NCBI RefSeq assembly: GCF_000737065.1
Contig: NZ_AQRC01000005.1
Location: forward strand, 1-64,000
Direction of reading: 5' to 3'
Source of the DNA: Thioclava atlantica
GTDB lineage: Bacteria; Pseudomonadota; Alphaproteobacteria; Rhodobacterales; Rhodobacteraceae
DNA: 64,000 nt
A model generated the notes under the pieces. That model searched no databases. It was not told the origin of the DNA and saw nothing but the letters and a program-made list of their open reading frames with translations. Position 1 is the first letter of the stretch, and each line of letters begins with the position of its first letter. Both the position numbers and the translations under genes were made by a program. This document shows, one piece after another, positions 1 to 29,138 of this stretch.

Positions 1-61
1 GGAGTACAGGTGGCCGAAAAGAGCTTAGCGTAGGATTTAGCACCGTCCGGCAGCAGACCCC
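1..61 (-). mobile_element. Terminal end of a Tn3-family transposon (38-bp terminal inverted repeat)
   Basis: Read on the minus strand, positions 61 to 24 form a 38-bp sequence that starts GGGGTCTGCTG and ends ATCCTACGCTAAG. A length of 38 bp, an outer GGGG and an inner TACGCTAAG are the hallmarks of Tn3-family terminal inverted repeats. Positions 1-23 are then the inside of the element. One plus-strand frame runs from the window edge to a TAG at 31-33 inside the repeat, and could be the last codons of a transposase, but nothing in it is recognisable. The five bases just outside, TTCAA (62-66), are AT-rich, as Tn3 targets usually are, and would be the target duplication. The family assignment rests on remembered consensus features. 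The other end lies outside the window. Confidence 0.75.
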
Positions 62-964
62 TTCAACTGGACCTATACGCTGGGCACCGGCCTGATGGAT
101 CCCTGGACGCTGGGCGCGACCGCGCTGATCCCCGCCGAAGGGGTCGAGCCGCGCGCCCTGCCGCTTCTGATGCGCCGCTTCGACGCGACGATCTTCGCCG
201 CCGCGCCCGGCATCTATCGCCAGATCCTTCGCGATCACGCGAAGCTCGACCTGCCGAAGCTGCGCCACGGGCTGAGCGCGGGCGAGGCATTGCCCGAGCC
301 CACCCGCGCGGCCTGGACCGCGGCCACGGGGACGAATGTTTACGAGGCGCTCGGCATGTCGGAATGCTCGACCTTCATCTCGGGCTGCCCCGACCACCCT
401 GCCCCGCCCGGCACGACCGGCTATCCGCAGCCCGGCCGCCGGGTCGCGGTGCTGGGCGAGGACGGCGCGCCGGTTCCGCGCGGCACCCCCGGCACGCTTG
501 CGGTGCATGCGAGCGATCCGGGGCTCTATCTCGGCTACTGGAACGCGCCCGAGGAAAGCGCCGCGCGGCGGCAGGGCGAATGGTTCGTGACAGGCGACAC
601 GGTGGCGATGGCGGAAGACGGCGCGATCACCTATCTCGGGCGCGGCCATGACATGCTCAATGCTGGCGGCTTCCGGATCTCGCCGATCGAGATCGAGGAG
701 GCGATGCATGGCTGCCCCGGCGCGGGCGAGGTCGCCGCGGTCGAGATCGCGGTCAAGGCCGATGCGACCGTGATCGGGCTCGCCTATACCGGCGGGGCCA
801 GCCCCGAGACGCTGAAAGCCCATGCGCAGGACGTGCTCGCGCGCTACAAGCAGCCGCGGGCCTATCGCCATGTCGCGGCCCTTCCGCGTAACCGAAACGG
901 AAAGATCCTGCGCGCCAGCCTGCGGGCGCAGTGGCAAGAGGAGATCGCCCATGATCACGCTTGA
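62..964 (+). pseudogene. AMP-dependent acyl-CoA synthetase, 3' fragment interrupted by a transposon
   Basis: This is the C-terminal half of an ANL-superfamily acyl-CoA synthetase, which activates a carboxylic acid as an adenylate and transfers it to CoA. Homology-like sequence (FNWTYTLGTG...) begins immediately at base 62, upstream of the first ATG at 95. Motifs in order: GMSECSTF (A5-like), a GD in the ATP-binding region, GRGHDMLNAGGFRI (A8 hinge) and NRNGKILR with the catalytic lysine near the end. Only about 300 of the usual 500 or more residues are present. In-frame stops at 26-28 and 38-40 lie in the inserted Tn3-type end. The 289-residue remainder from ATG 95 lacks the N-terminal domain, so it is probably inactive. 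Its last 14 bases overlap the next gene, which suggests a former operon. Confidence 0.75.
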
Positions 965-1598
965 TATCTTCGCCGATCCGGTCTGCCCCTGGTGTTTCAT
1001 CGGCAAGGCGCGGCTCGACCGGGCCTTCGCCGAACGCCCCGGACATCCGTTCGTGCGCGCCTGGCAGCCATTCGAGCTCAACCCCACGCTGCCGCCCGAA
1101 GGGATGCCGCGCGCCGAATACCTGCAGGCCAAATTCGGTCAGGACGGCGCGGCACAGATGCATGTGCAGCTGCTCGAGATCGCCGAGGCCGAGGGCTATG
1201 ATTTCCATCCCGAACGCGTCACCCATCAGCCCAATACGCGCGACGCGCACCGCCTGCTGCACTGGGCCGGGATCGAGGGCGTTCAGGAAGCGGTGATGGC
1301 GGCGCTGCTCGATGCGCATTGGCGCGAGGGGCTCGATATCGGCGATCACGCAGTCCTGGGCGAGATTGCCGGGGCGAAGGGGATGGAGCGCGGGGTCGTC
1401 GAACGGCTGCTCGCCTCCGATGCCGATCGCGACACGATCGCCGCCAAGGAGGAACATGCGCGCGAGCGCGGGATCACCGCGGTGCCGAGCGCCATCGTCG
1501 CGGGCCGTCATCTGGTGACCGGGGCGCAGCCCACCGAGCTCTGGCTCAAGGTGATCGACGAGCTCTCGGGCGCGCCACCCGCAGCGACCCGGCACTGA
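951..1598 (+). CDS. DsbA family oxidoreductase (FrnE-like)
   Basis: A 215-residue thioredoxin-fold protein of the DsbA/FrnE (2-hydroxychromene-2-carboxylate isomerase-like) group. The N-terminus has the dithiol motif CPWC (DPVCPWCFIGK) at about residues 11-14, and a helical insertion follows. The conserved GITAVPSAIV segment near residue 175 carries the cis-proline loop of the fold. There is no signal peptide, so it is probably a cytoplasmic thiol-disulfide oxidoreductase. The start ATG lies inside the end of the acyl-CoA synthetase gene (14-base overlap), so the two were probably co-translated; after the transposon insertion its expression may depend on another promoter. Substrate unknown. 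Confidence 0.85.
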   Translation: MITLDIFADPVCPWCFIGKARLDRAFAERPGHPFVRAWQPFELNPTLPPEGMPRAEYLQAKFGQDGAAQMHVQLLEIAEAEGYDFHPERVTHQPNTRDAHRLLHWAGIEGVQEAVMAALLDAHWREGLDIGDHAVLGEIAGAKGMERGVVERLLASDADRDTIAAKEEHARERGITAVPSAIVAGRHLVTGAQPTELWLKVIDELSGAPPAATRH

Positions 1599-1662
1599 GT
1601 TCCTTCCTCCGCGCCCGCGCACAGGACGCTGCGCGCGCCGCGCACTGGCCAATGCCGCCCAG

Positions 1663-2925
1663 ATGCCTATTGTGGACGGCATTCCCTTCATGACGAAAGT
1701 CCGGTCCGACATGGCCTACAGCCCCGATGCGCCCCGCGCGCGCAGCCCCCTTTCCCTGCCCGAGCTGACGGTGATGCTCGCCTCGCTCGTCGCGACGGTC
1801 GCCTTCTCGATCGACGCGATGCTGCCCGCGCTGCCGCAGATCGCGGCTGAGCTGAGCCCCGACGCGGTCAACCGCGCGCAGCTCGTGCTGAGCGCCTTCG
1901 TGCTCGGGATGGGGATCGGCACCTTCGTCGCGGGCCCGATCTCGGATGCGATCGGGCGCAAACGCACGATCAATGGCGGGATCGCGATCTATCTCGTCGC
2001 GGCCTTCACCGCCGCCCATGCGCAAAGCCTCGAGGCGCTGCTCGCGGCGCGCGTGCTTCAGGGGATCGGCGCGGCAGGTCCGCGGATCACCGTGATGGCG
2101 CTGGTGCGCGACCTCTTCAAGGGGCGCGAAATGGCGAAGGTCACCTCCTTCATCATGATGATCTTCATCCTCGTCCCCGCCGTCGCCCCCTCGATCGGAT
2201 CGCTGGTGATCGCGGCGGCCGGGTGGCGCGGCGTGTTCTGGGCCTTCATGGCCTTCGGCCTGATCGGGGTGAGCTGGCTCAACCTGCGCCAACCCGAAAC
2301 GCTCCCCCCCGAACACCGCCGCCCGCTGAGCCTTTCCAAGCTCGGCGAAGCCGCGCGCGAGGTGCTCGCCCATTCCGACGTGCGCCTCTACATCGTCACC
2401 CTGACGCTGGGCTTCGGGCAGATGTTCGCACTGCTCTCCACCGCGCCGCAGCTCTATGCCGCGCATGGCGTGCGCGAGACCTTCCCGCTCTGGTTCGCGA
2501 TCGGCGCGCTGATGGCCGGCACGGGCGCGGTCTTCAATGCGCGTTTCGTGATGCATCTCGGGATGCGGCGGATCGTGAAAGGGTCCTATCTCATGCAGAT
2601 CGGCGTCTCGAGCGTGATGATGGGGCTCGTTCTGGCGGGCTTCACCGATGGCAGCGCCGGCTTTCCGTTCATCTTCCTCTATACGGTGAGCGTGTTCTGG
2701 ATGGCGGGCGTCACCTTCGGCAATCTCAACGCGCTCGCCCTCGAACGGATGGGGCATATCGCGGGAATGGCGGCCTCGCTGGTGACCGCGATCTCCACGG
2801 TCGGCGCGGTTGCGATCGCGGTCCCGGTGGGCCTCGCCTTCAACGGCACGGCCCTGCCGATGGTCAGCGCGACGCTGATCTGTTCGAGCCTCGCCTGGTG
2901 GCTGATCCGCAAGACGCAGGAATGA
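1663..2925 (+). CDS. MFS multidrug exporter, Bcr/CflA type
   Basis: A proton-driven drug exporter of the DHA1 (Bcr/CflA) branch, 420 residues from the first ATG, with about 12 hydrophobic segments. The loop after TM2 carries MFS motif A (GPISDAIGRKRTI), and the N-terminal TM1 (ASLVATVAFSIDAMLPALPQI) is typical of the family. ATGs at 1690 and 1711 are possible alternative starts, giving 411 or 404 residues; no strong Shine-Dalgarno separates them, and 1690 has a weak GGACGG ahead of it. The gene ends seven bases before a dispersed palindromic repeat shared with the convergent mfd gene. Substrate cannot be read from the sequence. Confidence 0.85.
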   Translation: MPIVDGIPFMTKVRSDMAYSPDAPRARSPLSLPELTVMLASLVATVAFSIDAMLPALPQIAAELSPDAVNRAQLVLSAFVLGMGIGTFVAGPISDAIGRKRTINGGIAIYLVAAFTAAHAQSLEALLAARVLQGIGAAGPRITVMALVRDLFKGREMAKVTSFIMMIFILVPAVAPSIGSLVIAAAGWRGVFWAFMAFGLIGVSWLNLRQPETLPPEHRRPLSLSKLGEAAREVLAHSDVRLYIVTLTLGFGQMFALLSTAPQLYAAHGVRETFPLWFAIGALMAGTGAVFNARFVMHLGMRRIVKGSYLMQIGVSSVMMGLVLAGFTDGSAGFPFIFLYTVSVFWMAGVTFGNLNALALERMGHIAGMAASLVTAISTVGAVAIAVPVGLAFNGTALPMVSATLICSSLAWWLIRKTQE

Positions 2926-2931
2926 GGGAAA

Positions 2932-3063
2932 GGGGCGCTGCCCCTCTTCGCTGACGCGAATTCACCCCGGGATATTTGGATCAAGAGGAAGCGGACAGTC
3001 TCTTCCAAATGCCCGGAAATATCCCGGGGGAGGCTGCCGGCAGGCAGCCGGGGGCAGAGCCCC
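2932..3063. repeat. Dispersed palindromic repeat, full copy (copy 1)
   Basis: Full copy between the convergent MFS gene and mfd. Outer arms GGGGCGCTGCCCC (2932-2944) and GGGGGCAGAGCCCC (3050-3063) flank two inner arms: CCCCGGGATATTTGGATCA (left) and AAATATCCCGGGGG (right). The inner arms are roughly complementary, so the transcript can fold from either strand. It lacks a strong T-run, so it is not a classical terminator. Related copies lie at 12091, 19844, 24721, 35207 and 40423. Confidence 0.8.
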
Positions 3064-3064
3064 T

Positions 3065-6000
3065 TCAGGCTTTCTTCTTTTCCATCGCGACGACCTTTTC
3101 GGCGAGATCGCGCGCGATCGCGAAGGCGCCGCGGATCTTGTCCTTGTCGTTCTTCCAGTCGCGGCGGATGACGAGCTTGTTGTCCTTCACCCTGGCCAGA
3201 TCGCGCTGCGCGGTGAGGAATTCCACGAGCCCCGCGGGATTGGGAAACTTGTCGTTGTGGAACTGCACCGTCGCGCCTTTCGGGCCCGCATCGAGACGTC
3301 CGATCATCGCGCGCTTGCACATCGCCTTGATCCGCACCACCAGAAGAAGCGTGTTCACCTCTCTGGGCAGCTCCCCGAACCGGTCGATGAGTTCCGCCGC
3401 GAAGCCCTCGAGCTCGACCTTGGTGGTCAGAGAGGAGAGCCGGCGATAGAGCCCGAGCCGCACGTCGAGATCGGGGACGTAGCTCTCGGGGATCATCACC
3501 GGCACGCCGAGGTTGATCTGCGGCGACCAGTCGCCATCCGCGGTCTCGGTCAGCTCGCCCGATTTCAGCTTCGAGATCGTCTCTTCGAGCATGGACTGGT
3601 AGAGCTCGTAGCCCACCTCGCGGATATGGCCCGACTGTTCCTCGCCCAGCAGATTGCCCGCGCCGCGCAGGTCGAGATCCTGGCTCGCGAGGTTGAAGCC
3701 CGCGCCCAGGCTGTCGAGCGAGCCCAGCAGGCGCAGGCGTTTCTGTGCCTGGGGCGTGAGCGGCATGCGCGGCTTCGTCGTCAGGTAGCAATAGGCGCGG
3801 GTCTTGGCGCGCCCGACCCGGCCGCGGATCTGGTAGAGCTGCGACAGGCCGAACATGTCGGCGCGGTGCACCACCATCGTGTTGGCGGTGGGGATGTCGA
3901 GCCCGCTCTCGACGATGGTCGTCGCGAGCAGCACGTCGTATTTGCCGTCATAGAAGGCGTTCATCCGCTCATCGAGCTCGCCCGCCGCCATCTGGCCGTG
4001 AGCTACGAGATATTTCACCTCCGGGACATGCGTCTTCAAGAACTCTTCGATCTCCGGCAGATCGGAAATCCGCGGCACGACATAGAAGCTCTGCCCGCCG
4101 CGGTAATGTTCGCGCAGCAACGCCTCGCGGATCGTCACCGTGTCGAACTCGCTGACATAGGTGCGGATCGCGAGCCGGTCGACGGGGGGCGTGCCGATCA
4201 CCGAGAGGTCGCGCACCCCGGTCAGCGAAAGCTGCAGCGTGCGCGGGATCGGGGTCGCGGTCAGGGTGAGGACGTGGATCTCGGAACGCATGTCCTTCAG
4301 GCGTTCCTTGTGCTGCACGCCGAAATGCTGCTCCTCGTCGATCACCAGCAGGCCGAGATTGGCGAATTTCACCGTCTTGGCGAGGACCGCATGGGTGCCC
4401 ACGACGATATCCACCGTGCCCTCGGCGAGACCCTGCCGGGTCTGCGCCGCCTGCTTGGCCGAGACGAAGCGCGACAGCGGACGTACGGTGATCGCGGTGC
4501 CGCGGAAACGCTCGGAAAAGGTCTGGAAGTGCTGGCGCGCAAGCAGCGTCGTGGGCGCGATCACCGCGACCTGCATCCCCGATTGGGCGGCGATGAAGGC
4601 TGCGCGCATCGCCACCTCGGTCTTGCCGAAGCCGACATCGCCGACCACGAGGCGGTCCATCGGCGTGCCCGATTTCAGATCCGCGGCGACATCCTCGATC
4701 GCGGCCATCTGGTCGTCGGTCTCGGTATAGGGGAAGCGCGCGGCGAAGGCTTCCCATTCGTGATGCGGCGCCTCGAGGATCGGGCCGGCGCGCAGGTAGC
4801 GTTCGGCCGCGATCCGCATCAGCTTGTCGGCGATCTGGCGGATGCGCTCCTTGAGCTTGGCCTTCTTCGCCTGCCAGGCGCCGCCGCCGAGCTTGTCGAG
4901 AAGGCCTTCCTCATGGCCGTAGCGGCTGAGCAGCTCGATATTCTCGACCGGCAGGTAAAGCCGGTCGCCGCCCGCATATTCGAGCAGCACGCAATCATGC
5001 GGCGCGCCGAGCGCCTCGACCGTCTCGAGCCCCTTGTAGCGCCCGACGCCGTGATCGACATGCACGACGAGATCGCCCGGCGAGAGCGTCGTGTGCTCGG
5101 TCAGGAAGTTCTCGGCCTTGCGCTTGCGCCGCGGCTTCGAGACGAGGCGCTCGCCCAGCACATCCTGCTCGGAGATCACGGTGAGCTGTTTGCCGTCGCG
5201 CGGGGCCTCGAACCCCTCGTCGAGCGGCCAGACCGTGAGATTGAGGCCGGCATCGATCTCGCGCGCATCCCCGATCAGCTTGGCGCCGATCAGCCCCTCA
5301 TCCTCCATCAGTCCTTTCAGGCGTTCGCGTGCGCCCTCGGACCAGCTCGCGATCACCACCGGACCGTCGCTGAGACGTGCCTGAACTTGATCCTTCAAGG
5401 CGCTGAAAAGGCTGACCGTTTCGACCTTGCGCTCGGGCGCGAAATTGCGACCGATCCGCCCGCCCGCATTGAGGATGCCCGGTCCGGGCGGCGCGGCGTT
5501 GACCTGAAGGCTGAGCACGCGCAGGGGTGCGAGCGTCGTCTTCCAGCCCTCCGGGTCGAGATAGAGCAGTCCCGGCGGCGCGGGTTTGTAGACCGAATCC
5601 AGCCGGTCGCGCCGCGTCATCGCCTCGCGCCGGGTGTCGTATTGATCCTCGATCCCTTCCCAGCGGCTTCCCTGCTGCGGACCGATCTGATCGTCGAGCA
5701 TCACGCTCGCCTCGGGAAGATAGTCGAAGATCGTCTCGAGCCGGTCGTGGAAGAAGCCCAGCCAATGCTCCATCCCCGCCTGCTTGCGCCCCGCCGACAC
5801 CGCCTCGTAAAGCGGGTCTTCCGCACCGCCCGAGCCGAACTCGATGCGGTAATTCTGCCGGAACCGGGTGATCGCGGCCTCGTCGAGGATCACCTCGGAG
5901 ACCGGGGCCAGCTCGACGCCCGAGAGCTTCTCGGTGGTGCGCTGGCTGACCGGATCGAAGCGGCGCGCCTCGTCGAGCACGTCGCCGAAGAGATCGAGCC

Positions 6001-19982: not shown

Positions 19983-21269
19983 TCACAGGTTGCGAAAGCG
20001 GCTGCGCTGCGCGCCCGTCCACTCGACATCGAAGCGCCAGCCCTCTTCGGTCTGGTGCTCGGCGCGCACCACGTTCTGCTCGTGGAGCCAGGCGCGCTTG
20101 CGGCCCTCGGCGAAGGGCAGCGCGATCTCTTCGTGGAAGCGCTCTTCCGCGAGTTTCTCGTCGACGGCCGCGAGAAGCGCCGCGACCCCTTCGCCGGTGA
20201 GCGCCGAGATCGCCTGCAGATCGGGCTCGCGCGCCTCTTGCACCGAGAGCGCGCGGCGCGGCTCGGGCGGGACCAGGTCCATCTTGTTCCAGACCTCGAT
20301 CAGCGGCACGTCCTTCGCGACCCCGAGCTTGCCGAGGATGTCGTTCACATCCTGCGCCTGCTCCTCGGTCTCGGGATGCGAGATGTCGCGCACATGCAAG
20401 ATCAGATCGGCCTCGAGCACCTCTTCGAGGGTCGCGCGGAAGGCCGCGACGAGCTGGGTGGGCAGGTCGGAGATGAACCCCACCGTATCGGACAGGATCA
20501 CCTTGCGGCCCGAGGGCAGCTCCAGCCCCCGCATCGTCGGATCGAGCGTCGCGAACAGCATGTCCTTGGCCAGGACCTCGGCCCCGGTCACCCGGTTGAA
20601 GAGCGTCGATTTGCCCGCATTGGTATAGCCCACCAGCGCCACGATCGGGAACGGCACCTTGCGGCGCGCGGCGCGGTGCAGCTCGCGCGTCTTCACCACC
20701 TTGGCGAGCTGGCGGCGCAGGCGCACGATCTGCTCGTCGATGGCGCGGCGGTCGGCTTCGATCTGGGTCTCGCCGGGCCCGCCCACGAAACCGAGCCCGC
20801 CGCGCTGGCGTTCGAGGTGGGTCCAGGCGCGCACGAGCCGGGTCCGCTGATAGCTCAGCGCCGCCAGTTCGACCTGCAGCACGCCTTCGCGGGTGCGGGC
20901 GCGATCGGCGAAGATCTCGAGGATCAGCCCGGTCCGGTCGAGGAGTTTCACCCCCCATGCCTTCTCGAGATTGCGCTGCTGCACGGGCGTCACCGGCCCG
21001 TCCACCAGAACCAGATCGACCTCGGCCGCCTCGAGCCGGTCCTTGATTTCCGCGAGCTTGCCCGAGCCGAAGAGATGACCGGGCTCGGGTTTCCTGAGCT
21101 TCGCGATCTCGGACCCCACGACCTGCAGATGCGGCAAGGCCCCGGCGAGCGAGACCGCCTCGGCCAGCGCAAATTCGGGCAAGTGCCTCTGGCCCTCGCG
21201 CGACGGGATGTCGGGATGGATCACATAGGCCCGCGTTTCGGGCGTTTCAGTGGATGTCGTTTCGCTCAA
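19983..21269 (-). CDS. hflX: GTPase HflX
   Basis: HflX is a ribosome-associated GTPase that splits stalled or heat-damaged 70S ribosomes. The 428-residue protein has the N-terminal HflX-specific domain (LVDGPVTPVQQRNLEKAWG), a glycine-rich linker with GGLGFVGGPGETQIEADRR, and a GTPase domain with G1 GYTNAGKST, G3 DTVGFI and G4 NKMD. It lies 11 bp downstream of hfq, the same pairing as in many proteobacteria, and is convergent with the alpha-glucosidase gene. Confidence 0.97.
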   Translation of the reverse strand: MSETTSTETPETRAYVIHPDIPSREGQRHLPEFALAEAVSLAGALPHLQVVGSEIAKLRKPEPGHLFGSGKLAEIKDRLEAAEVDLVLVDGPVTPVQQRNLEKAWGVKLLDRTGLILEIFADRARTREGVLQVELAALSYQRTRLVRAWTHLERQRGGLGFVGGPGETQIEADRRAIDEQIVRLRRQLAKVVKTRELHRAARRKVPFPIVALVGYTNAGKSTLFNRVTGAEVLAKDMLFATLDPTMRGLELPSGRKVILSDTVGFISDLPTQLVAAFRATLEEVLEADLILHVRDISHPETEEQAQDVNDILGKLGVAKDVPLIEVWNKMDLVPPEPRRALSVQEAREPDLQAISALTGEGVAALLAAVDEKLAEERFHEEIALPFAEGRKRAWLHEQNVVRAEHQTEEGWRFDVEWTGAQRSRFRNL

Positions 21270-21280
21270 GGCGGGGACGC

Positions 21281-21514
21281 TCAGTCGTCGCCTTCATAGA
21301 GCGAAATCGGCTGCCCCGGCATGATCGTCGAGATCGCGTGCTTGTAGACCAGCTGCGACTGGCCGTCGCGGCGGAGCAACACACAGAAGTTGTCGAACCA
21401 GGTGATCACGCCTTGCAGCTTCACCCCGTTGATCAGGAAAATCGTGACGGGAACCTTTGTCTTGCGCACATGATTGAGAAATGCGTCCTGCAGGTTCTGT
21501 TTATCGCCAGCCAT
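21281..21514 (-). CDS. hfq: RNA chaperone Hfq
   Basis: Hfq forms a hexameric ring that pairs small RNAs with mRNAs. The 77-residue protein contains the Sm1 motif ([20 protein letters not shown]) and the Sm2 core ([10 protein letters not shown]), and lacks the long acidic tail seen in enterobacteria. Its transcript probably includes hflX. A TTGACA-like element lies on the minus strand at 21576-21571, 57 bp upstream of the start, but no good -10 element fits it. A candidate Hfq-type small RNA is described at 53763. Confidence 0.97.
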
Positions 21515-21659
21515 TATATTCTTGCCCTTAACTTTATGTCCTTCGGGCAGCCCCGTTGATCTGCCCCTTGTGTCAAGTATGCAGCGCAGCGCGGGAGATT
21601 CCAGCCCAAAAAACAGTTTGTTACGCCACGGGCCGGTTTTTGCTCACCCAGGGGCAGGT

Positions 21660-23183
21660 TCAGGACCGCCAGAATTCGGGGTTGAAGAGCGCGATGATGG
21701 CCAAGGTCTCGAGCCGGCCAAGCACCATCGCGAAGGCGAAGATCGCCTTGATCGGCTCGCTCAGATGGGCCCAGCTGAGCGGAACGTCGGCCGCGATTCC
21801 CGCCAGCGGCCCGGTATTGGAGAGCGCCGCGATGGTCAGGATGGTCGCCGGCTCGAAGCTCAGCCCGAACAGCGACACCGCCATCATCACCCCGGCGATC
21901 GAGATCGCGAAGAGCATGAAGAATATCCAGCTGATATAGGCCCCCTCGCGGCGCAGCCGGCGCGCCATCGACCCGCCCCCCGCGATCGAACTGGGATAGA
22001 TCAGCTTGTCGAGTTCGCGCTCGCCGTGACGCAGCAGCGCATAGACCCGCAAGAGCCGCACGCCGCCTGCCGTCGTCGCGACGCCCCCGCCGATGATCGC
22101 GAGCCCCGCGAGGATCAGCCCCGGCGTGCCCAGCCCCGACCAGTCGCGCGCATCGTGCCAGGCGGTCGATTCGAAGCCGGTCGTGGTGAGGAAGGACAGC
22201 GAGGTGAAGAGCGAGCCCCAGATCGATTTCACGATCGCGTCGAGATGGGCGGGCATGCGCACCTCGAGCGCCGCGATCCAGTGGCGCAGGAACAGGAAGA
22301 CCGGAACGATGACCACCAGCGCCGCGGCCAGCCGCAATTCGGGATCGTTGCCGATCCGGTCGGAGGCACGCAGCTCGCCGCCGCCCGGCCAGAGCCTGCG
22401 CGAGAGCGCGGGCAGGAAGAAAACGAAGATCAGCACCTCGCCCGCAAGCCCCGAGCGCGCGCCGATCATCCCGCCCACCGGCGAGATGCCGGAGGTCGAG
22501 AGCGTCGACATCGCGTGGATCAGTGCGGTCAGTGGGCGGTCGCCCGCCATCAGGAGCGCCACCCACAAGAGCAGCGTGAGCCCGGCATAGATCGGCGCGA
22601 TCGTCACCGCGTAATGGGCGATGCGCTCGGAGGTCTCGGCCCCGCCATCGGCGGCGGGGGCGGCCGAGCTCGGCGCGCCCGAGGGGCCGCCCGAGAAGAA
22701 CACCTCGAAGCCGCCCAGGCGCATCGGCGCGAGTACCGCGATCGCCATCACCAGGATGAAGAACCCGCCCAGCCAGGCCACCAGCCCGCGCCACAGATGC
22801 AGCGAGCCGATCAGCCGCCCCGGGTCGTAGAGCGTGCCCCCCGTCGTGGTGAAGGAGGAGACCATCTCCCACCAGCTGTTGAAGAAACTCGTATCGGGCA
22901 CCGCGATATCGAAGGGCACCGCGAACATCACCGGCAGCAGCGTGAAGGCCGCGAGCATCGTCAACAGGCTCGCGCGCCCTGCCCGCCGCGCGCGCGGGTT
23001 CGCGGCATTGGCCAGCGCGATCAGCGCGGTGCCGAAGAGAAACAGCGTGCCGGAATAGAAGAACGCCCGCGCCACATGGTGATGATGCGTCACGAGCGCA
23101 TGGATCGCCGGCACATACATCGCGAGCGACGAGGCGCCCATCAGCAGGATTGGCAGCGGCAGGGCCTTGATGACGCGTTCCAT
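21660..23183 (-). CDS. trkH: Trk potassium uptake protein, membrane subunit
   Basis: TrkH is the potassium-translocating subunit of the low-affinity Trk system. The 507-residue protein has the four pore-loop repeats of the SKT superfamily, with filter-region glycines in TTTGGTLYDPG, MSTLSTSGISPVGG, LTTTGFESTAW and ALSNTGPLAG. It ends in ALFNPEFWRS. It follows trkA with a 12-bp gap, so both Trk subunits come from one transcript. Confidence 0.95.
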   Translation of the reverse strand: MERVIKALPLPILLMGASSLAMYVPAIHALVTHHHHVARAFFYSGTLFLFGTALIALANAANPRARRAGRASLLTMLAAFTLLPVMFAVPFDIAVPDTSFFNSWWEMVSSFTTTGGTLYDPGRLIGSLHLWRGLVAWLGGFFILVMAIAVLAPMRLGGFEVFFSGGPSGAPSSAAPAADGGAETSERIAHYAVTIAPIYAGLTLLLWVALLMAGDRPLTALIHAMSTLSTSGISPVGGMIGARSGLAGEVLIFVFFLPALSRRLWPGGGELRASDRIGNDPELRLAAALVVIVPVFLFLRHWIAALEVRMPAHLDAIVKSIWGSLFTSLSFLTTTGFESTAWHDARDWSGLGTPGLILAGLAIIGGGVATTAGGVRLLRVYALLRHGERELDKLIYPSSIAGGGSMARRLRREGAYISWIFFMLFAISIAGVMMAVSLFGLSFEPATILTIAALSNTGPLAGIAADVPLSWAHLSEPIKAIFAFAMVLGRLETLAIIALFNPEFWRS

Positions 23184-23195
23184 CGCTCCCGCGCC

Positions 23196-24572
23196 TCAGA
23201 AGAAGTCGATCGAGACCTGCAGGAGCCGCTCGACCTCCGGCACATCGCTGGTGAGGGCGAAGAGCACGACGATATCGCCCTCCTCGATCCGGGTATTGCC
23301 GGTGGGCTTGACGATCTGGTCGCCCTTGCGGATCGCCCCGATCAGCACGCCCTCGGGGAACTCGACCTCGCGCACCGCCTTGCCCGACATCGGCGAGGTG
23401 CCCATCACCTGCGCCTCGATCACCTCGGCCTCGGCATCGCCGATCGAATAGATCGCGCGCACCCGCCCGTGCCGGATATGGCGCAGGATCGAGGACACCG
23501 TGGTCGCGCGCGGATTGATATAGGCGTCGATATCGAGCGCGCTCAGGAGCGGCGCGAGCGTCGGGTCGTTGATCAGGCAGATCGCCATCCGGCAGCCCGC
23601 CTGCTTGGCGCGCACCGAGACGAGGATGTTGGTCTTGTCGTCGTCGGTGACGGCCAGAACCGCATCGGCGCCCTCGATATTGGCCTCCGCGAGCAGCTCG
23701 GCGCTCATTCCGTCGCCATTGAGCACGATCGTGCGGTCGAGCGCATCGGCCGCGCGTTCGGCCTGCGAGCGGTTGCGCTCGATGATCTTGGCGCGGATCC
23801 GGTCGGTGCGGGCCTCGAGCGCGCGCGCCACCCCGAGCCCGACATTGCCGCCGCCGATGATGACGATGCGCTCCTGCTTGCGGGTGGATTTGCCGAAGAT
23901 GTCGAGAGTGCGATCCACGTCGCCGGTGACCGCGAAGACATAGATCTGGTCGCCCGCGAAAAGCTGATCGCCCGGCTCGGGGGCGAAAAGCCGCCCCTCG
24001 CGCCGGATCCCCACCACCAGCGCGCGCAGGGTCGAGAAAAGATCGGTGAGCTGGCGCAGCGGCGTCTCGAGCACCGGGCATTCCGCGTCGAGTTCGATCC
24101 CGAGAAGCTGCAGCTTGCCGTCGAGAAAGCTCTCCGTGTCGAAGGTCGAGGGGGCGGCAAGCCGCTGCAGCGCGGCTTCCGCGACCTCGCGTTCGGGGCT
24201 GATCACCACGTCGATCGGCAGGTGATCGCGGCGATAGAGATCGGAATATTCCGGCAGCAGGTAGCTCTGCGCCCGGATCCGCGCGATCTTGCGGGTGATC
24301 CCGAAGACCGACATGGCGACCTGGCAGGTCACCATGTTCACCTCGTCCGAATGGGTTGCCGCGATCATCAGGTCGCAATCGCGCGCGCCCGCCTGCTCGA
24401 GCACGTCGGGATGCGAGGCGAATCCCACCACGCCCTGAACGTCGAGCGTATCGGCGGCGCGCCGCACCAGATCGGGGTTCGAATCGACCACCGTCACATC
24501 GTTGCGCTCGCCCGCGAGATGCCGCGCGATCTGCCACCCGACCTGACCGCCGCCGCAGATGATGACCTTCAT
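23196..24572 (-). CDS. trkA: Trk potassium uptake protein, NAD-binding regulatory subunit
   Basis: TrkA gates TrkH through nucleotide binding. The 458-residue protein has two RCK units: an N-terminal Rossmann fold (IICGGGQVGWQIARHLAG) with a TrkA-C domain, and a second Rossmann fold (IIGGGNVGLGVARALE) with a second TrkA-C domain ending in LQVSIDFF. The gene is first in the trkA-trkH operon. A sigma-70-type promoter lies 31-60 bp upstream. Confidence 0.95.
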   Translation of the reverse strand: MKVIICGGGQVGWQIARHLAGERNDVTVVDSNPDLVRRAADTLDVQGVVGFASHPDVLEQAGARDCDLMIAATHSDEVNMVTCQVAMSVFGITRKIARIRAQSYLLPEYSDLYRRDHLPIDVVISPEREVAEAALQRLAAPSTFDTESFLDGKLQLLGIELDAECPVLETPLRQLTDLFSTLRALVVGIRREGRLFAPEPGDQLFAGDQIYVFAVTGDVDRTLDIFGKSTRKQERIVIIGGGNVGLGVARALEARTDRIRAKIIERNRSQAERAADALDRTIVLNGDGMSAELLAEANIEGADAVLAVTDDDKTNILVSVRAKQAGCRMAICLINDPTLAPLLSALDIDAYINPRATTVSSILRHIRHGRVRAIYSIGDAEAEVIEAQVMGTSPMSGKAVREVEFPEGVLIGAIRKGDQIVKPTGNTRIEEGDIVVLFALTSDVPEVERLLQVSIDFF

Positions 24573-24602
24573 GGCAAAAACTCCGCGCCCTGTCTTGGCC
24601 CC

Positions 24603-24632
24603 TATCTAGGCCGCCTTTCCGGGAGGGGTCAA
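24603..24632 (-). promoter_or_regulatory. Candidate promoter of trkA-trkH
   Basis: On the minus strand TTGACC (24632-24627) and TAGATA (24608-24603) are 18 bases apart, with a predicted start near 24596, 24 bases ahead of the trkA ATG. A similar TAGATAGG lies between the divergent hisI and IscU-like genes (around 40861). Confidence 0.45.
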
Positions 24633-24720
24633 ATGGGAAGCGTGCGCACCCGGCCGGCCCGTGTCTTTTGCGTCATGCGCAAGGCGCCCCCGGCAGCGAT
24701 ATCTGGGATTGAATGGAAAT

Positions 24721-24785
24721 ACCGCTTCCTCCTGACGAAAATATCCCGGGGGTGAATGGCGAAGCCAGAGGGGGCAGCGCCCCCT
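24721..24785. repeat. Dispersed palindromic repeat, right half (copy 4)
   Basis: Only the right half of the element is well preserved: GCTTCCTCCTGACGAAAATA, then TCCCGGGGGTGAATGGCGAA and GGGGGCAGCGCCCCCT. The piece TGAATGGCGAAGCCAGAGGG matches copy 3 almost base for base. It lies at the 3' end of the ABC transporter ATPase gene, between two genes on the same strand, and not at a convergent junction. Confidence 0.7.
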
Positions 24786-24795
24786 GCCCCCGGGG

Positions 24796-25887
24796 TCAGC
24801 GGAACAGGACCAGCGCGCCGGGCGACCAGGCGACGCGGGTGCGGGTGCCGACATCGAGAACGGGGCGGCCGAAGACGTTGCGCATCGAGATCCGCACCGG
24901 GCGCTCCATCCCGTCGAGCCGCACGTCGTAATAGGTCATGTCGCCGTAATAGACGACCTCGTCGATCACGCCCTGTGCCTCGCGGTCGCCCGCCTGCTGG
25001 CCTTCGTAGAGAAGGGTGAGCGTTTCGGGACGGAACCCCACCGCGGCCTGGTCGCCCGCGGGGGCGAGCGAGACCTGGGACCGGGCGACCTCGAGCGCGC
25101 CGAGCCCGGCCACCTCGGCGGTGATCGTGTCGCCCCGCTCGCCGGTCACCGTCGCGGGCAGGAAGTTCATCACGCCGATGAAATCGGCCACGCGGCGCGA
25201 ATTGGGGCGGCGGTAGAGCGTCTCGGGATCGGCGAGCTGGGCGATCTCGCCCTCGAACATCACCGCGATCCGGTCCGACATCACCAGCGCCTCTTCCTGG
25301 TCATGGGTGACGAGGACGAAGGTGATTCCCACCTCGCGCTGCAGCTTGATCAGTTCGACCTGCATCTGCTCGCGGATCTTGCGATCGAGCGCGGAGAGCG
25401 GCTCGTCGAGGAGCAGCACCTTGGGCTTGAGGATGAGCGCGCGGGCAAGCGCGACGCGCTGGCGCTGACCGCCCGAGAGCGCATGGGCGGCGCGCGCGCC
25501 ATAGCCCTTGAGCCCGACCATCTCGAGCGCTTCCTCGACGAGCTTGGCCTTCTCGCCTTTCGAGCGGGTGTCGCGGCGCAGCCCGAAGCCCACGTTCTGC
25601 GCGACGCTCAGATGCGGGAAGATCGCGTAGGACTGGAAGACCATGTTGGTCGGGCGCTTGTTCGCGGGCACGCCCGCCATGTCGCGCCCGTCGATCAGCA
25701 CCGCGCCCGAGGAGATGTCCTCGAAGCCCGCGATGGTGCGCAACAGCGTGGTCTTGCCGCAGCCCGACGGTCCGAGCAGCGAGAAGAACTCGCCCGGGCG
25801 GATCTCGGCCGTGATACCGCGCAGCGCATGGTAATCGCCGTAATATTTGTGCACTTCGCGGAAGGCGATCATCGGCTGGGTCGTCAC
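24796..25887 (-). CDS. ABC transporter ATP-binding protein, spermidine/putrescine type
   Basis: The 363-residue ATPase of an importer in the PotA-like group. Walker A is GPSGCGKTT, the signature is LSGGQRQRVALARAL, Walker B is VLLLDEPLSALD, and the switch histidine is in LVTHDQEEAL. The last 110 or so residues form a TOBE-type regulatory domain. Its start overlaps the end of the permease gene by four bases, the usual sign of coupled translation. The substrate may be a polyamine or a related amine, but the family also carries other solutes, and no binding protein is present to decide. Confidence 0.9.
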   Translation of the reverse strand: MTTQPMIAFREVHKYYGDYHALRGITAEIRPGEFFSLLGPSGCGKTTLLRTIAGFEDISSGAVLIDGRDMAGVPANKRPTNMVFQSYAIFPHLSVAQNVGFGLRRDTRSKGEKAKLVEEALEMVGLKGYGARAAHALSGGQRQRVALARALILKPKVLLLDEPLSALDRKIREQMQVELIKLQREVGITFVLVTHDQEEALVMSDRIAVMFEGEIAQLADPETLYRRPNSRRVADFIGVMNFLPATVTGERGDTITAEVAGLGALEVARSQVSLAPAGDQAAVGFRPETLTLLYEGQQAGDREAQGVIDEVVYYGDMTYYDVRLDGMERPVRISMRNVFGRPVLDVGTRTRVAWSPGALVLFR

Positions 25888-26693
25888 AGGAAACCTCCGG
25901 TATCCTTGGCGCCGGTCCGCTTCAAACCGCGGCGGCGGAAGAATTCGGCCACGCTCAGGAGCACGATCGAGGCCGCGACGAGGCAGGTACCGAGCGCCAT
26001 GATGACCGGGATCGAGCTGGGAAAGCGCAGCTGCGAAAAGATGTAGGTGGGCAGCGTGGGCTGGTTGCCCGCGAGGAAGAAGGCCACGATGAACTCGTCG
26101 AGCGAGATCGTGAAGGAGATCAGGAAGGCCGAGATGATGCCGGGCATCACCAGCGGCAGCACGATCAGCCGGAAGGTCCCGATCCGGGTCTCGCCAAGAT
26201 CGACCGCGGCCTCCTCGAGCGATTGGTCGAGCGTCGCGAAGGCGGTCTGCAGCACCGCAATCGCATAGGGAAGCGAGATGATGACATGGCCGAGGATCAC
26301 CGTGCCGATCGAGAGGTTCACGCGCAGCACCTCGAGCATGACCAGCAGGAGCGACATCCCCATCAGGATATCGGGCAGCACCATCGGCAGCATGATCAGC
26401 CCCATGATCGAGCCCTTCGCCCGGAACCTGTAGCGGGTCGAGGCGCGCGCTGCGAAGACGGCGAGGATGGTGGCGCCGGCCGAGGAGGTCAGCGCGATGA
26501 TCAGCGAGTTCGAGAGCGCATGGCGCAGCGTGTCGTTCTCGGCCATCTTCGCGAACCAGCCGGTGGTGAAACCCTTGAGCGGGAAGGCGATGATCGTGCC
26601 GTCATTGAAGGCAAAGAGCGGCAGCAGCAGGATCGGCGCATACAGGAACAGCAGATAGGCCAGCGCATAGATCTTGAGTGGCGGGAATTTCAT
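25884..26693 (-). CDS. ABC transporter permease, PotC-like
   Basis: A 269-residue inner-membrane permease with six hydrophobic segments. The cytoplasmic EAA loop EEAAVDLGETRIGTFRLIVL, which couples to the ATPase, is intact. The opening YALAYLLFLYAPILLLPLFA is typical of the second permease of polyamine-type importers. It lies between the first permease gene (seven-base gap) and the ATPase gene (four-base overlap). Confidence 0.9.
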   Translation of the reverse strand: MKFPPLKIYALAYLLFLYAPILLLPLFAFNDGTIIAFPLKGFTTGWFAKMAENDTLRHALSNSLIIALTSSAGATILAVFAARASTRYRFRAKGSIMGLIMLPMVLPDILMGMSLLLVMLEVLRVNLSIGTVILGHVIISLPYAIAVLQTAFATLDQSLEEAAVDLGETRIGTFRLIVLPLVMPGIISAFLISFTISLDEFIVAFFLAGNQPTLPTYIFSQLRFPSSIPVIMALGTCLVAASIVLLSVAEFFRRRGLKRTGAKDTGGFL

Positions 26694-26700
26694 GCGCGCC

Positions 26701-27597
26701 TCACTTTCCGGCCTTGAGGAAGCGGCGGTTGAGCCAGAGGAAGAGCAGCGCGAGCGCGCCGACGACGAGGAGCGAACTGACCGCGATGGCCGAACCGAGC
26801 GGTCGGTTGTCGAGCGGCAGCATCTGCGCCTGGATCAGGTTCGCCACCATCGGGATCTTGCCGCCGCCGATCAGCTCGGGCGTGACATAGTCGCCCACCG
26901 TCGGGATGAAGACGATCAGGGTCGCGGCGACCACCCCGGGCATCGCGAGCGGCAGCGTCACGCGCAGGAAGGTGCGCCAGCGGCTCTCGCCGAGGTCCTG
27001 ACCCGCTTCCAGCAGCGAGCGGTCGATCTTCTCGAGGCTGACGAAGATCGGCAGGATCGCGAAAGGCGCATAGGCATGGGCGAGCGTGAGTGTGATCGCC
27101 CCGACCGAATTGAGCATCTGCAGCGGATCGGCGATCAGCCCGTTCGGGCCGATGATGCCCAGACTCTCGAGAGCCGAATTGACCACGCCGTTATAGCCGA
27201 GGATCACCTTCCACAGGAACACGCGGATCAGATAGGAGGTCCAGAACGGGATCGTGATCAGCAAGATCCAGCGCGCTTTCTTCGAGGGCTCCAGCCCGAA
27301 GCTCAGGAAATAGGCGATCGGGAAGGCCAGCGCGACGGTGGCGAGCGTCACCAGCCCCGCCACGAAGAGCGAACGGACCAGAATCACCCGGAAGATCGGA
27401 TCGGACCAGGTCGCGATGTAATTCTGCACGGTGAATTCGTGAATCACCGTCAGGTAGCCGTCCTTGAAGAAGGAATAGGCCAGGATCGTCGCGAGCGGCG
27501 CGGCCAGCAAAAGCACGGCATAGATCGCGGGCGGAGCGATCAGCGCATATCCCTGCGCGGCCTCGCTGCGCGTCCAGCTCTCACCTTTTGCCGCCAT
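26701..27597 (-). CDS. ABC transporter permease, PotB-like
   Basis: A 298-residue permease, first gene of the importer operon. The EAA loop is LEAGQDLGESRWRTFLRVTL. ATG 27597 (MAAKGESWTRSEAAQG) is preferred because GGGAGA precedes it at good spacing; a longer frame opening at 27642 adds 15 arginine-rich residues. A MocR-type regulator gene ends 128 bp upstream on the same strand. No periplasmic binding-protein gene lies on either side. Confidence 0.88.
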   Translation of the reverse strand: MAAKGESWTRSEAAQGYALIAPPAIYAVLLLAAPLATILAYSFFKDGYLTVIHEFTVQNYIATWSDPIFRVILVRSLFVAGLVTLATVALAFPIAYFLSFGLEPSKKARWILLITIPFWTSYLIRVFLWKVILGYNGVVNSALESLGIIGPNGLIADPLQMLNSVGAITLTLAHAYAPFAILPIFVSLEKIDRSLLEAGQDLGESRWRTFLRVTLPLAMPGVVAATLIVFIPTVGDYVTPELIGGGKIPMVANLIQAQMLPLDNRPLGSAIAVSSLLVVGALALLFLWLNRRFLKAGK

Positions 27598-27725
27598 GCG
27601 GATCTCCCTCAAAGCGCCTCTTGGCGGGCGCCGTCGCGCCACGAAAGCACATGCCCGCAGTCGAGAAAAGAGGGGACGCGATGTTGCGCGCGCGGGTTTC
27701 GGGCAAATGCCGCGAATTTGTGCAG

Positions 27726-29138
27726 TCAGACCGGGAGGTCGTCGGGCATCCGCTCGAGAAGGCGCTTGAGACGCTCGATCGCCTGCCGGAAGCGCTCTTC
27801 GGGCACGCCGCCCGCAAGCGCGATGCGCACCGCGTTCGGGGCCTGCCCGTCTTGCAGCGCGTATTCATCGCTCGCGCGCAGGAGCACCCCTTCGGCCTCG
27901 GCCATGCCCTTGAAGGTGGAGCCGCGCCAGCCCAGCGGCAGGGTGAGCCAGACGAAGCTCAGCCCCGGCTGCCAGCCAAGCTTCTGATCGCCGAGGCTTT
28001 GCAGCAGCATCTGCAACCTCCGCCCCATCACCGCCTGCGCGCGATGTTTGAGATCGAGCGCCTCGCCGCTCTCGAAGAGCCGGAACATGATATCGGTGAC
28101 CGGCCGAGAGACGCCGAAATAGCTGTGCTGCGCGGTCAGCCGGCCAGCCTCGCCCATGCCCTCGGGCGCGACCACGATCCCGAACCGCATCCCCGCCGAG
28201 ATCGATTTCGACAGCGAGGTGATATGCCAGCAGCGTTCCGGGGCGAGCGCGCGCAGGCTCGGCAGGCCCGAGACCGGCGCGGTGTAGCAGTCATCCTCGA
28301 TGATCTGCAGATCGTGCCGACGCGCCACCGCGACGATCGCCTCGCGCCGCGCACGCGACATCCGGCCCGCGGTGGGGTTCTGGGCATCGGGCGTGATGCA
28401 CACGACCTGCCCGCCATGACGCCGGCAGGCCGCCTCGAGCGCCTCGGGCACCATCCCCTCCTCGTCGATCGTCACGCCGCGGATCTCGGCCCGGTTGAGC
28501 CGCGCGGCATGGCGAAAGCCCGGATAGGCCAGTTCCTCGGCATAGACCACGGGGCGCTCGCCGCGCAGGCAGCATTGCAGCACCACGTTGATGCCGTTCT
28601 GCCCGCCATGGGTGAGCACGAGATCATCCGCGGTGATCCCGTCGAAATCGGTATATTCCGAGAACCAGACCAGCGCGGCCTTGCGGCAATATTCGTCACG
28701 CTTGAGCCCCGGATATTCGAGGTAATGCATGTCGATATCCTTCGCGGCCTCGGCCATCGCCCGCGCCAGCGCCGCAGTCTGCCCGATATCGGGAAGTTGC
28801 GGCGAACGCAGATCGACCACCCCGTCATCAAGCTCTGGATCGCGCATCGGCAAGGGGTAAAGCGTCTCGGTCGGCCCCATCCGCCGCGTTTGTGTCGATA
28901 CAAAGGTGCCCCGCCCCACCTGCGCCTCGAGAAGCCCCTCCTGGGTGGCGATTTGGTAGCCCCGCGCGACCGTGCCGGGCGTCACCCCCAATTTCCACGC
29001 CAAGTCCCTGACAGTGGGGAGTTTTGTGCCCGGAACAAGGTCCCCGCGACGGATGCCTTCGCGCAGCGCGCGCACCAGTGCGAGATATTTCGGGCCGCTT
29101 TGCGGGGCGAGGTCCGGGGTCCAGCTTGTGTCAGTCAC
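27726..29138 (-). CDS. MocR/GntR-type regulator with aminotransferase domain
   Basis: A 470-residue fusion of a GntR winged helix (about residues 15-85: GDLVPGTKLPTVRDLAWKLG, TPGTVARGY) with a fold-type I aminotransferase domain. The pyridoxal-phosphate lysine is in SLSKSISAGMRFG (around residue 309), and PDAQNPTAGRMS and IIEDDCYTAP are other cofactor-pocket motifs. MocR proteins use PLP as a sensor and usually control an adjacent metabolic or transport operon. The candidates here are the ABC importer downstream and the divergent DUF1127 gene. The intergenic region holds direct repeats of TTGTATC. Confidence 0.9.
   Translation of the reverse strand: MTDTSWTPDLAPQSGPKYLALVRALREGIRRGDLVPGTKLPTVRDLAWKLGVTPGTVARGYQIATQEGLLEAQVGRGTFVSTQTRRMGPTETLYPLPMRDPELDDGVVDLRSPQLPDIGQTAALARAMAEAAKDIDMHYLEYPGLKRDEYCRKAALVWFSEYTDFDGITADDLVLTHGGQNGINVVLQCCLRGERPVVYAEELAYPGFRHAARLNRAEIRGVTIDEEGMVPEALEAACRRHGGQVVCITPDAQNPTAGRMSRARREAIVAVARRHDLQIIEDDCYTAPVSGLPSLRALAPERCWHITSLSKSISAGMRFGIVVAPEGMGEAGRLTAQHSYFGVSRPVTDIMFRLFESGEALDLKHRAQAVMGRRLQMLLQSLGDQKLGWQPGLSFVWLTLPLGWRGSTFKGMAEAEGVLLRASDEYALQDGQAPNAVRIALAGGVPEERFRQAIERLKRLLERMPDDLPV

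Follow-up and report, generated by a model that had tools for sequence, protein, structure and literature searches.

The draft genome of Thioclava atlantica comprises 3,925,460 bases in 46 contigs, and the window, meaning the whole stretch of 64,000 nucleotides that was analysed, consists of bases 1-64000 of contig C5. Its first base is the edge of this contig, that is, an assembly break. The window opens with the end of a Tn3-family transposon, which is followed by the 3' fragment of a gene for an AMP-binding acyl-CoA synthetase; downstream, a DSBA-like gene, a gene for an MFS transporter and, on the opposite strand, the gene for transcription-repair coupling factor follow in this order. The coordinates are given in Table 1, together with the extent of a conjugative island that carries another copy of the transposon.

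Table 1. Features at the start of the window (contig C5) and the parts of the radC island on other contigs.
Feature	Position	Strand	Evidence or remark
tnpA-side terminus of the 3,690-bp Tn3-family element	1..61		100% identity to the reverse complement of C34 1-61 (locus L008)
Last tnpA codons, EYRWPKRA, and stop TAG (26-28)	2..28	+	Translation; end of the 963-aa TnpA of C34
Terminal inverted repeat, 39 bp	23..61	-	Identical to the tnpR-side repeat
Target duplication TTCAA, 5 bp	62..66		Second copy adjoins the tnpR-side repeat on C23; single in 3 relatives
AMP-binding acyl-CoA synthetase, 3' fragment of the interrupted gene	62..964	+	From codon 210 of 509, first ATG taken as start
DSBA-like gene	951..1598	+	Overlaps the synthetase stop; Pfam PF01323, 128 bits
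radC island, part on C8	C8:1-34990		Loci L140, L141
radC island, part on C22	C22		Loci L120, L121
radC island, part on C6	C6:1-12048		Locus L122

The ends of Tn3-family transposons are inverted repeats of about 38 bp with GGGG at the outer and TACGCTAAG at the inner side. A preliminary description of this DNA, made from the letters alone, had recognised this 38-bp layout at positions 61 to 24 of the minus strand, and it is present there as claimed, the perfect repeat itself measuring 39 bp. The two in-frame stops noted within the first 40 bases are TAG at 26-28 and TAG at 38-40; the first of them terminates the transposase gene tnpA, which is transcribed in the direction of the synthetase fragment. 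The transposon end is not a chance match, because exact copies of bases 1-61 stand on the edges of contigs C22 and C24 and within contig C34 of the same genome. The tnpR-side end of the same element was found at the edges of C23 and C6, and each of the five edges (C5, C6, C22, C23 and C24) carries only 61-63 bases of the element. A 22-base pattern of the repeat, searched with up to three mismatches, occurs at seven places in the genome, all of them exact, and its reversed control at none. In the rest of the window, 10-mers from the terminal repeat occur six times, 12-mers once and 14-mers not at all, and a search of positions 1-5000 with Rfam gave nothing at gathering scores. Outside this genome, bases 1-61 match the ends of elements annotated as Tn3, with some match in 277 plasmid records.

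The complete element was found on contig C34, which is 3,690 bp long and spans exactly from repeat to repeat, both being perfect over 39 bp. It contains tnpA on the minus strand, for a protein of 963 aa, and tnpR on the plus strand, for one of 203 aa; the two genes are divergent, lie 120 bp apart and both have their stop codons inside the terminal repeats. TnpA was recognised by the NCBIfam model transpos_Tn3 (NF033527) with 1050 bits (cut-off 500) and by the Pfam models DDE_Tnp_Tn3 (PF01526) with 442 bits and PF13700 with 189 bits, and its residues 4-959 align to the TnpA of Tn4430 in the PDB with an E-value of 2.9e-154. SSDG, DT and NKGEA, which we take to be the segments holding the catalytic residues, are kept in this alignment. 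TnpR matches the Pfam family Resolvase (PF00239) with 150.7 bits. The gap of 120 bp between the two genes has 57.5% AT, contains short repeats without clear res subsites and, judged only by its position, is presumably res. With a large DDE transposase, a repeat of about 38 bp that contains the family motif, a 5-bp duplication and a resolvase, C34 is a small cryptic Tn3-family transposon, an ordinary type of insertion. The tnpA, tnpR and matching repeat for which a search to the left of the window had been proposed all lie on this contig, but the suggestion of accessory cargo was not borne out, as C34 holds no cargo genes besides tnpA and tnpR.

In our reading, which we hold with a probability of about 0.96, this cryptic transposon of 3,690 bp, with its 39-bp repeats, tnpA, tnpR and presumed res, entered the synthetase gene by transposition at codon 210. 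The N-terminal part of the gene and the second TTCAA, both expected on the far side of the element, were located on contig C23, where the synthetase frame extends to TTCAA beside the tnpR-side repeat; the frame resumes at base 62 of the window, the position from which coding likeness had been described. Joining the flanks on C23 and C5 gives 509 open codons counted from the first ATG, with the insertion at codon 210. The empty site was examined in 19-kb stretches from three genomes (G001, G003 and G007), chosen from the relatives of 11 compared loci, and in all three C23 and C5 adjoin with an overlap of exactly 5 bases and a single TTCAA, so that the interpretation of bases 62-66 as a target duplication was upheld. 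C23 aligned to these stretches (E 1e-15) over the 4.2-4.3 kb next to the gene only, its other 14 kb being unaligned. The synthetase aligns without interruption in all 11 compared loci (L018-L028; ten from the same genus and one from the same family) at 58-84% identity. Its 3' part has a DNA match at E <=0.001, in several cases a weak one, in 28 of 41 genomes, namely 40 relatives and the genome itself. Within the genus, 12 of 15 genomes have such a match, which in G005 is divided over two contigs, and no DNA match to the 3' part was found in the remaining three (G008, G011 and G012). We infer the join of C23, C34 and C5, no single contig spanning all three, and the copy in the synthetase gene is most probably the full C34 element.

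The start of the window at a contig edge, and the identical 61-63 bases at the edges of several contigs, would also be expected if bases 1-61 were an assembly artefact, in which the edge of a repeat was misjoined to an intact synthetase gene. The preliminary description had allowed for such a join, and the first bases do sit at a break, but the other half of the gene stops at the opposite end of the element with the same TTCAA, this TTCAA is single in the three relatives, and a full-identity match to the 3' half of the gene exists in this genome solely on C5. Together with the empty sites, the matching duplication therefore indicates a real insertion, and we consider an artefact hardly credible. 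Another explanation, which we regard as very unlikely, is that the gene was interrupted by a short non-autonomous derivative, consisting of the ends without tnpA and tnpR and mobilised by another copy; the interior of the synthetase copy is unassembled, and miniature Tn3 derivatives have been described (PMC4133298), but both edges break after 61-63 bases, equal to the other edges of the element, and a short form would normally have been assembled through its own unique junction.

With regard to the insertion of the complete transposon, the mechanism can be outlined by analogy with that established for the family, in which TnpA fuses donor and target into a cointegrate that contains the element twice, and TnpR then separates them at res (PMC7157771). 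At this locus, accordingly, TnpA would have formed a cointegrate by replicative transposition into the synthetase gene, and TnpR would have resolved the cointegrate at res. Among the relatives, a target duplication is the exception: one of 5 bp was found in only one of eight copies with printed ends, near or distant, or in one of six when L066 and L080 with their misplaced ends are left out, and the sole case is ACATT in Rhodobacter capsulatus SP108. For Tn3434a, Tn6122 and Tn5393, duplications of 6 bp are reported (PMC3281130), and both this report and the missing 5-bp duplications among relatives count against the insertion reading, as do the lack of a spanning contig, the unequal numbers of tnpA-side and tnpR-side edges, the placing of res by position and the fact that the synthetase gene is not universal in the genus.

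The fragment of the interrupted gene contains the domains AMP-binding and AMP-binding_C. Two intact relatives score highest with models of the benzoate-CoA ligase family, at 215 and 220 bits under a curated cut-off of 375, and for one of them the top solved structures are benzoate-CoA ligases. The name was therefore limited to AMP-binding acyl-CoA synthetase. Since the element cuts its frame, the interrupted synthetase is predicted to be inactive; its loss would be expected, and so would polarity on the DSBA-like gene. An ordinary event accounts for the broken gene as well as for the assembly break, and there is consequently no cargo to seek at this site.

To place the transposon among its relatives, 315 stretches encoding related TnpA proteins were collected, of which the best 80 were taken further. 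Among these 80, the whole element is present in Pannonibacter carbonis Q4.6 (L041) and Celeribacter persicus (L040), with one and three mismatches in 3,690 bp, respectively. P. carbonis belongs to the Hyphomicrobiales and C. persicus to the Rhodobacterales, thus to two orders; it is the same 3,690-bp element in both, but at insertion sites other than the one in the synthetase gene, and neither copy has a 5-bp duplication. The copy of R. capsulatus SP108 with the ACATT duplication consists of two pieces with 98.3% and 99.3% identity. These pieces are separated by an insert next to the presumed res (L110, 1666-2913) with an ORF of 297 aa, which we take to be an IS3-like insertion sequence. Element DNA gave some match (E <=0.001) in 97 of 295 genomes of the family, many of the listed matches being short and partial; apart from its own, the only same-genus genome among those listed is G003, which has no match.

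The closest described element that was found is Tn3434a of Paracoccus, a cryptic Tn3-family transposon of 3,695 bp organised like Tn6122 (PMC3281130). The element on plasmid pAMI1 of Paracoccus aminophilus (L135), which by strain and length is probably the published Tn3434a, shares 76.7% DNA identity, 85.7% TnpA identity and 80.3% TnpR identity with C34; the DNA divergence is thus about 23%, and the terminal repeats are 86.8% alike. Repeats of 38 bp and duplications of 6 bp are given for Tn3434a (PMC3281130), whereas the C34 element has 39 and 5 bp. Tn6122 from Paracoccus halophilus is likewise described as cryptic, with identical 39-bp repeats and divergent tnpA and tnpR with res between them, but it measures 3,792 bp with a TnpA of 967 aa (PMC3281130), as opposed to 3,690 bp and 963 aa. 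Two TnpA proteins of P. halophilus, either of which may belong to Tn6122, show 73.0% (L105) and, over 835 residues, 86.3% (L044) identity to that of C34.

The element on plasmid pP13_h of Phaeobacter piscinae (L136) has a TnpA with 99.9% identity and identical outermost 35 bp, but its TnpR is only 80.6% identical, and this element may be a recombinant. An IS110-family gene separates its tnpA from the end, and past its tnpR lies an annotated aph(3'')-Ib, both of which are absent from C34; in Tn5393, strA and strB lie downstream of tnpR (PMC3281130). By its example, the element in the synthetase gene could be larger and carry accessory genes, but C34 terminates exactly at both repeats with tnpA and tnpR alone, and the near-identical copies of P. 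carbonis and C. persicus likewise measure 3,690 bp, which makes this alternative extremely improbable. In the literature searched, no paper was recognised as describing the C34 element or the radC island, which is no proof of absence.

For the cryptic 3,690-bp transposon, we infer at least three copies in the genome, at C5/C23, at C6/C22 and at C24. The edges are unbalanced, with three on the tnpA side (C5, C22 and C24) and two on the tnpR side (C23 and C6), and therefore one or more partner edges must be missing; the partner of the C24 edge was not found in searches of the genome with the element ends and the 22-base repeat pattern. The C5/C23 copy has TTCAA on both sides. The pairing of C6 with C22 was taken from P. 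carbonis, where these two sequences flank the element and no duplication is seen. The island copy has no 5-bp duplication in either genome (L041; C6 and C22 edges), which points to a rearrangement beside it before the transfer. Contig C24 begins with a transposon edge, and its far end resembles the reverse complement of the C8 start over about 60 bases. On the same contig, a stretch of 16.4 kb (C24 1139-17567, L123) with a multicopper oxidase and ccmF is 99% identical to C. persicus.

The C6/C22 copy lies in an island which, with the pieces on C8, C22 and C6 added up, comprises about 78 kb including the transposon. It matches P. carbonis Q4.6 at a reported identity of 100% over C6 1-12048, over C22 1-14790, 14788-20000 and 20001-28064, and over C8 64-34,925, for the most part on contig NZ_PUDR01000013.1; the last 2.1 kb of the C8 stretch were found on another P. 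carbonis contig. In P. carbonis, C22 and C8 adjoin with an overlap of 11 bases, and in T. atlantica both contigs break at this junction, C8 starting with about 63 bases that are not shared there. About 28.7 kb of additional sequence separates two parts of C22 in P. carbonis. C22 encodes proteins with TrbL, TraG/TrbE-like and T2SSE domains inside a stretch shared with P. carbonis (20001-28064).

At one end of the island, C8 contains an N-terminal part of RadC and an integrase-like gene, and at the other, C6 contains the C-terminal part of RadC, with secA about 1.2 kb further on. At the C6-type end in P. carbonis, the island continues into a different RadC-like sequence, as judged by eye, and at the opposite end a 92% match begins a contig. 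Both hosts therefore appear to carry the same island in radC. Prophages in radC have been described in other bacteria (PMC4774983), and a scan of five contig stretches detected no tRNA genes as a possible target. The identity to Pannonibacter is unlikely to result from contamination, which was also considered, given the differing RadC-like flank at the C6-type end and the 92% match at the other. Beyond the island, the DNA of C6 at and around secA is 75% identical to C. persicus over 2.7 kb (1812 bits) and 71-72% identical to P. carbonis in two pieces of about 525 bits. Because this region is nearer to C. persicus than to P. carbonis, a transfer of the island between families or orders is likely.

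The island copy is a plausible, unproven source of the synthetase insertion; as C34 is a single consensus of all copies, the hop may have gone in either direction. Whether the Tn3 element came on the radC island of about 78 kb, very recently passed between T. atlantica and the lineage of P. carbonis, directly or via a common donor, and then spread into the chromosomal gene, is in our view an evenly balanced question. If so, a vehicle and its passenger would have been caught in dispersal after arrival. The island observation matters somewhat more than the synthetase insertion, since a shared island with a transposon copy shows a route by which Tn3 elements that are small and cryptic may spread and then insert into metabolic genes.
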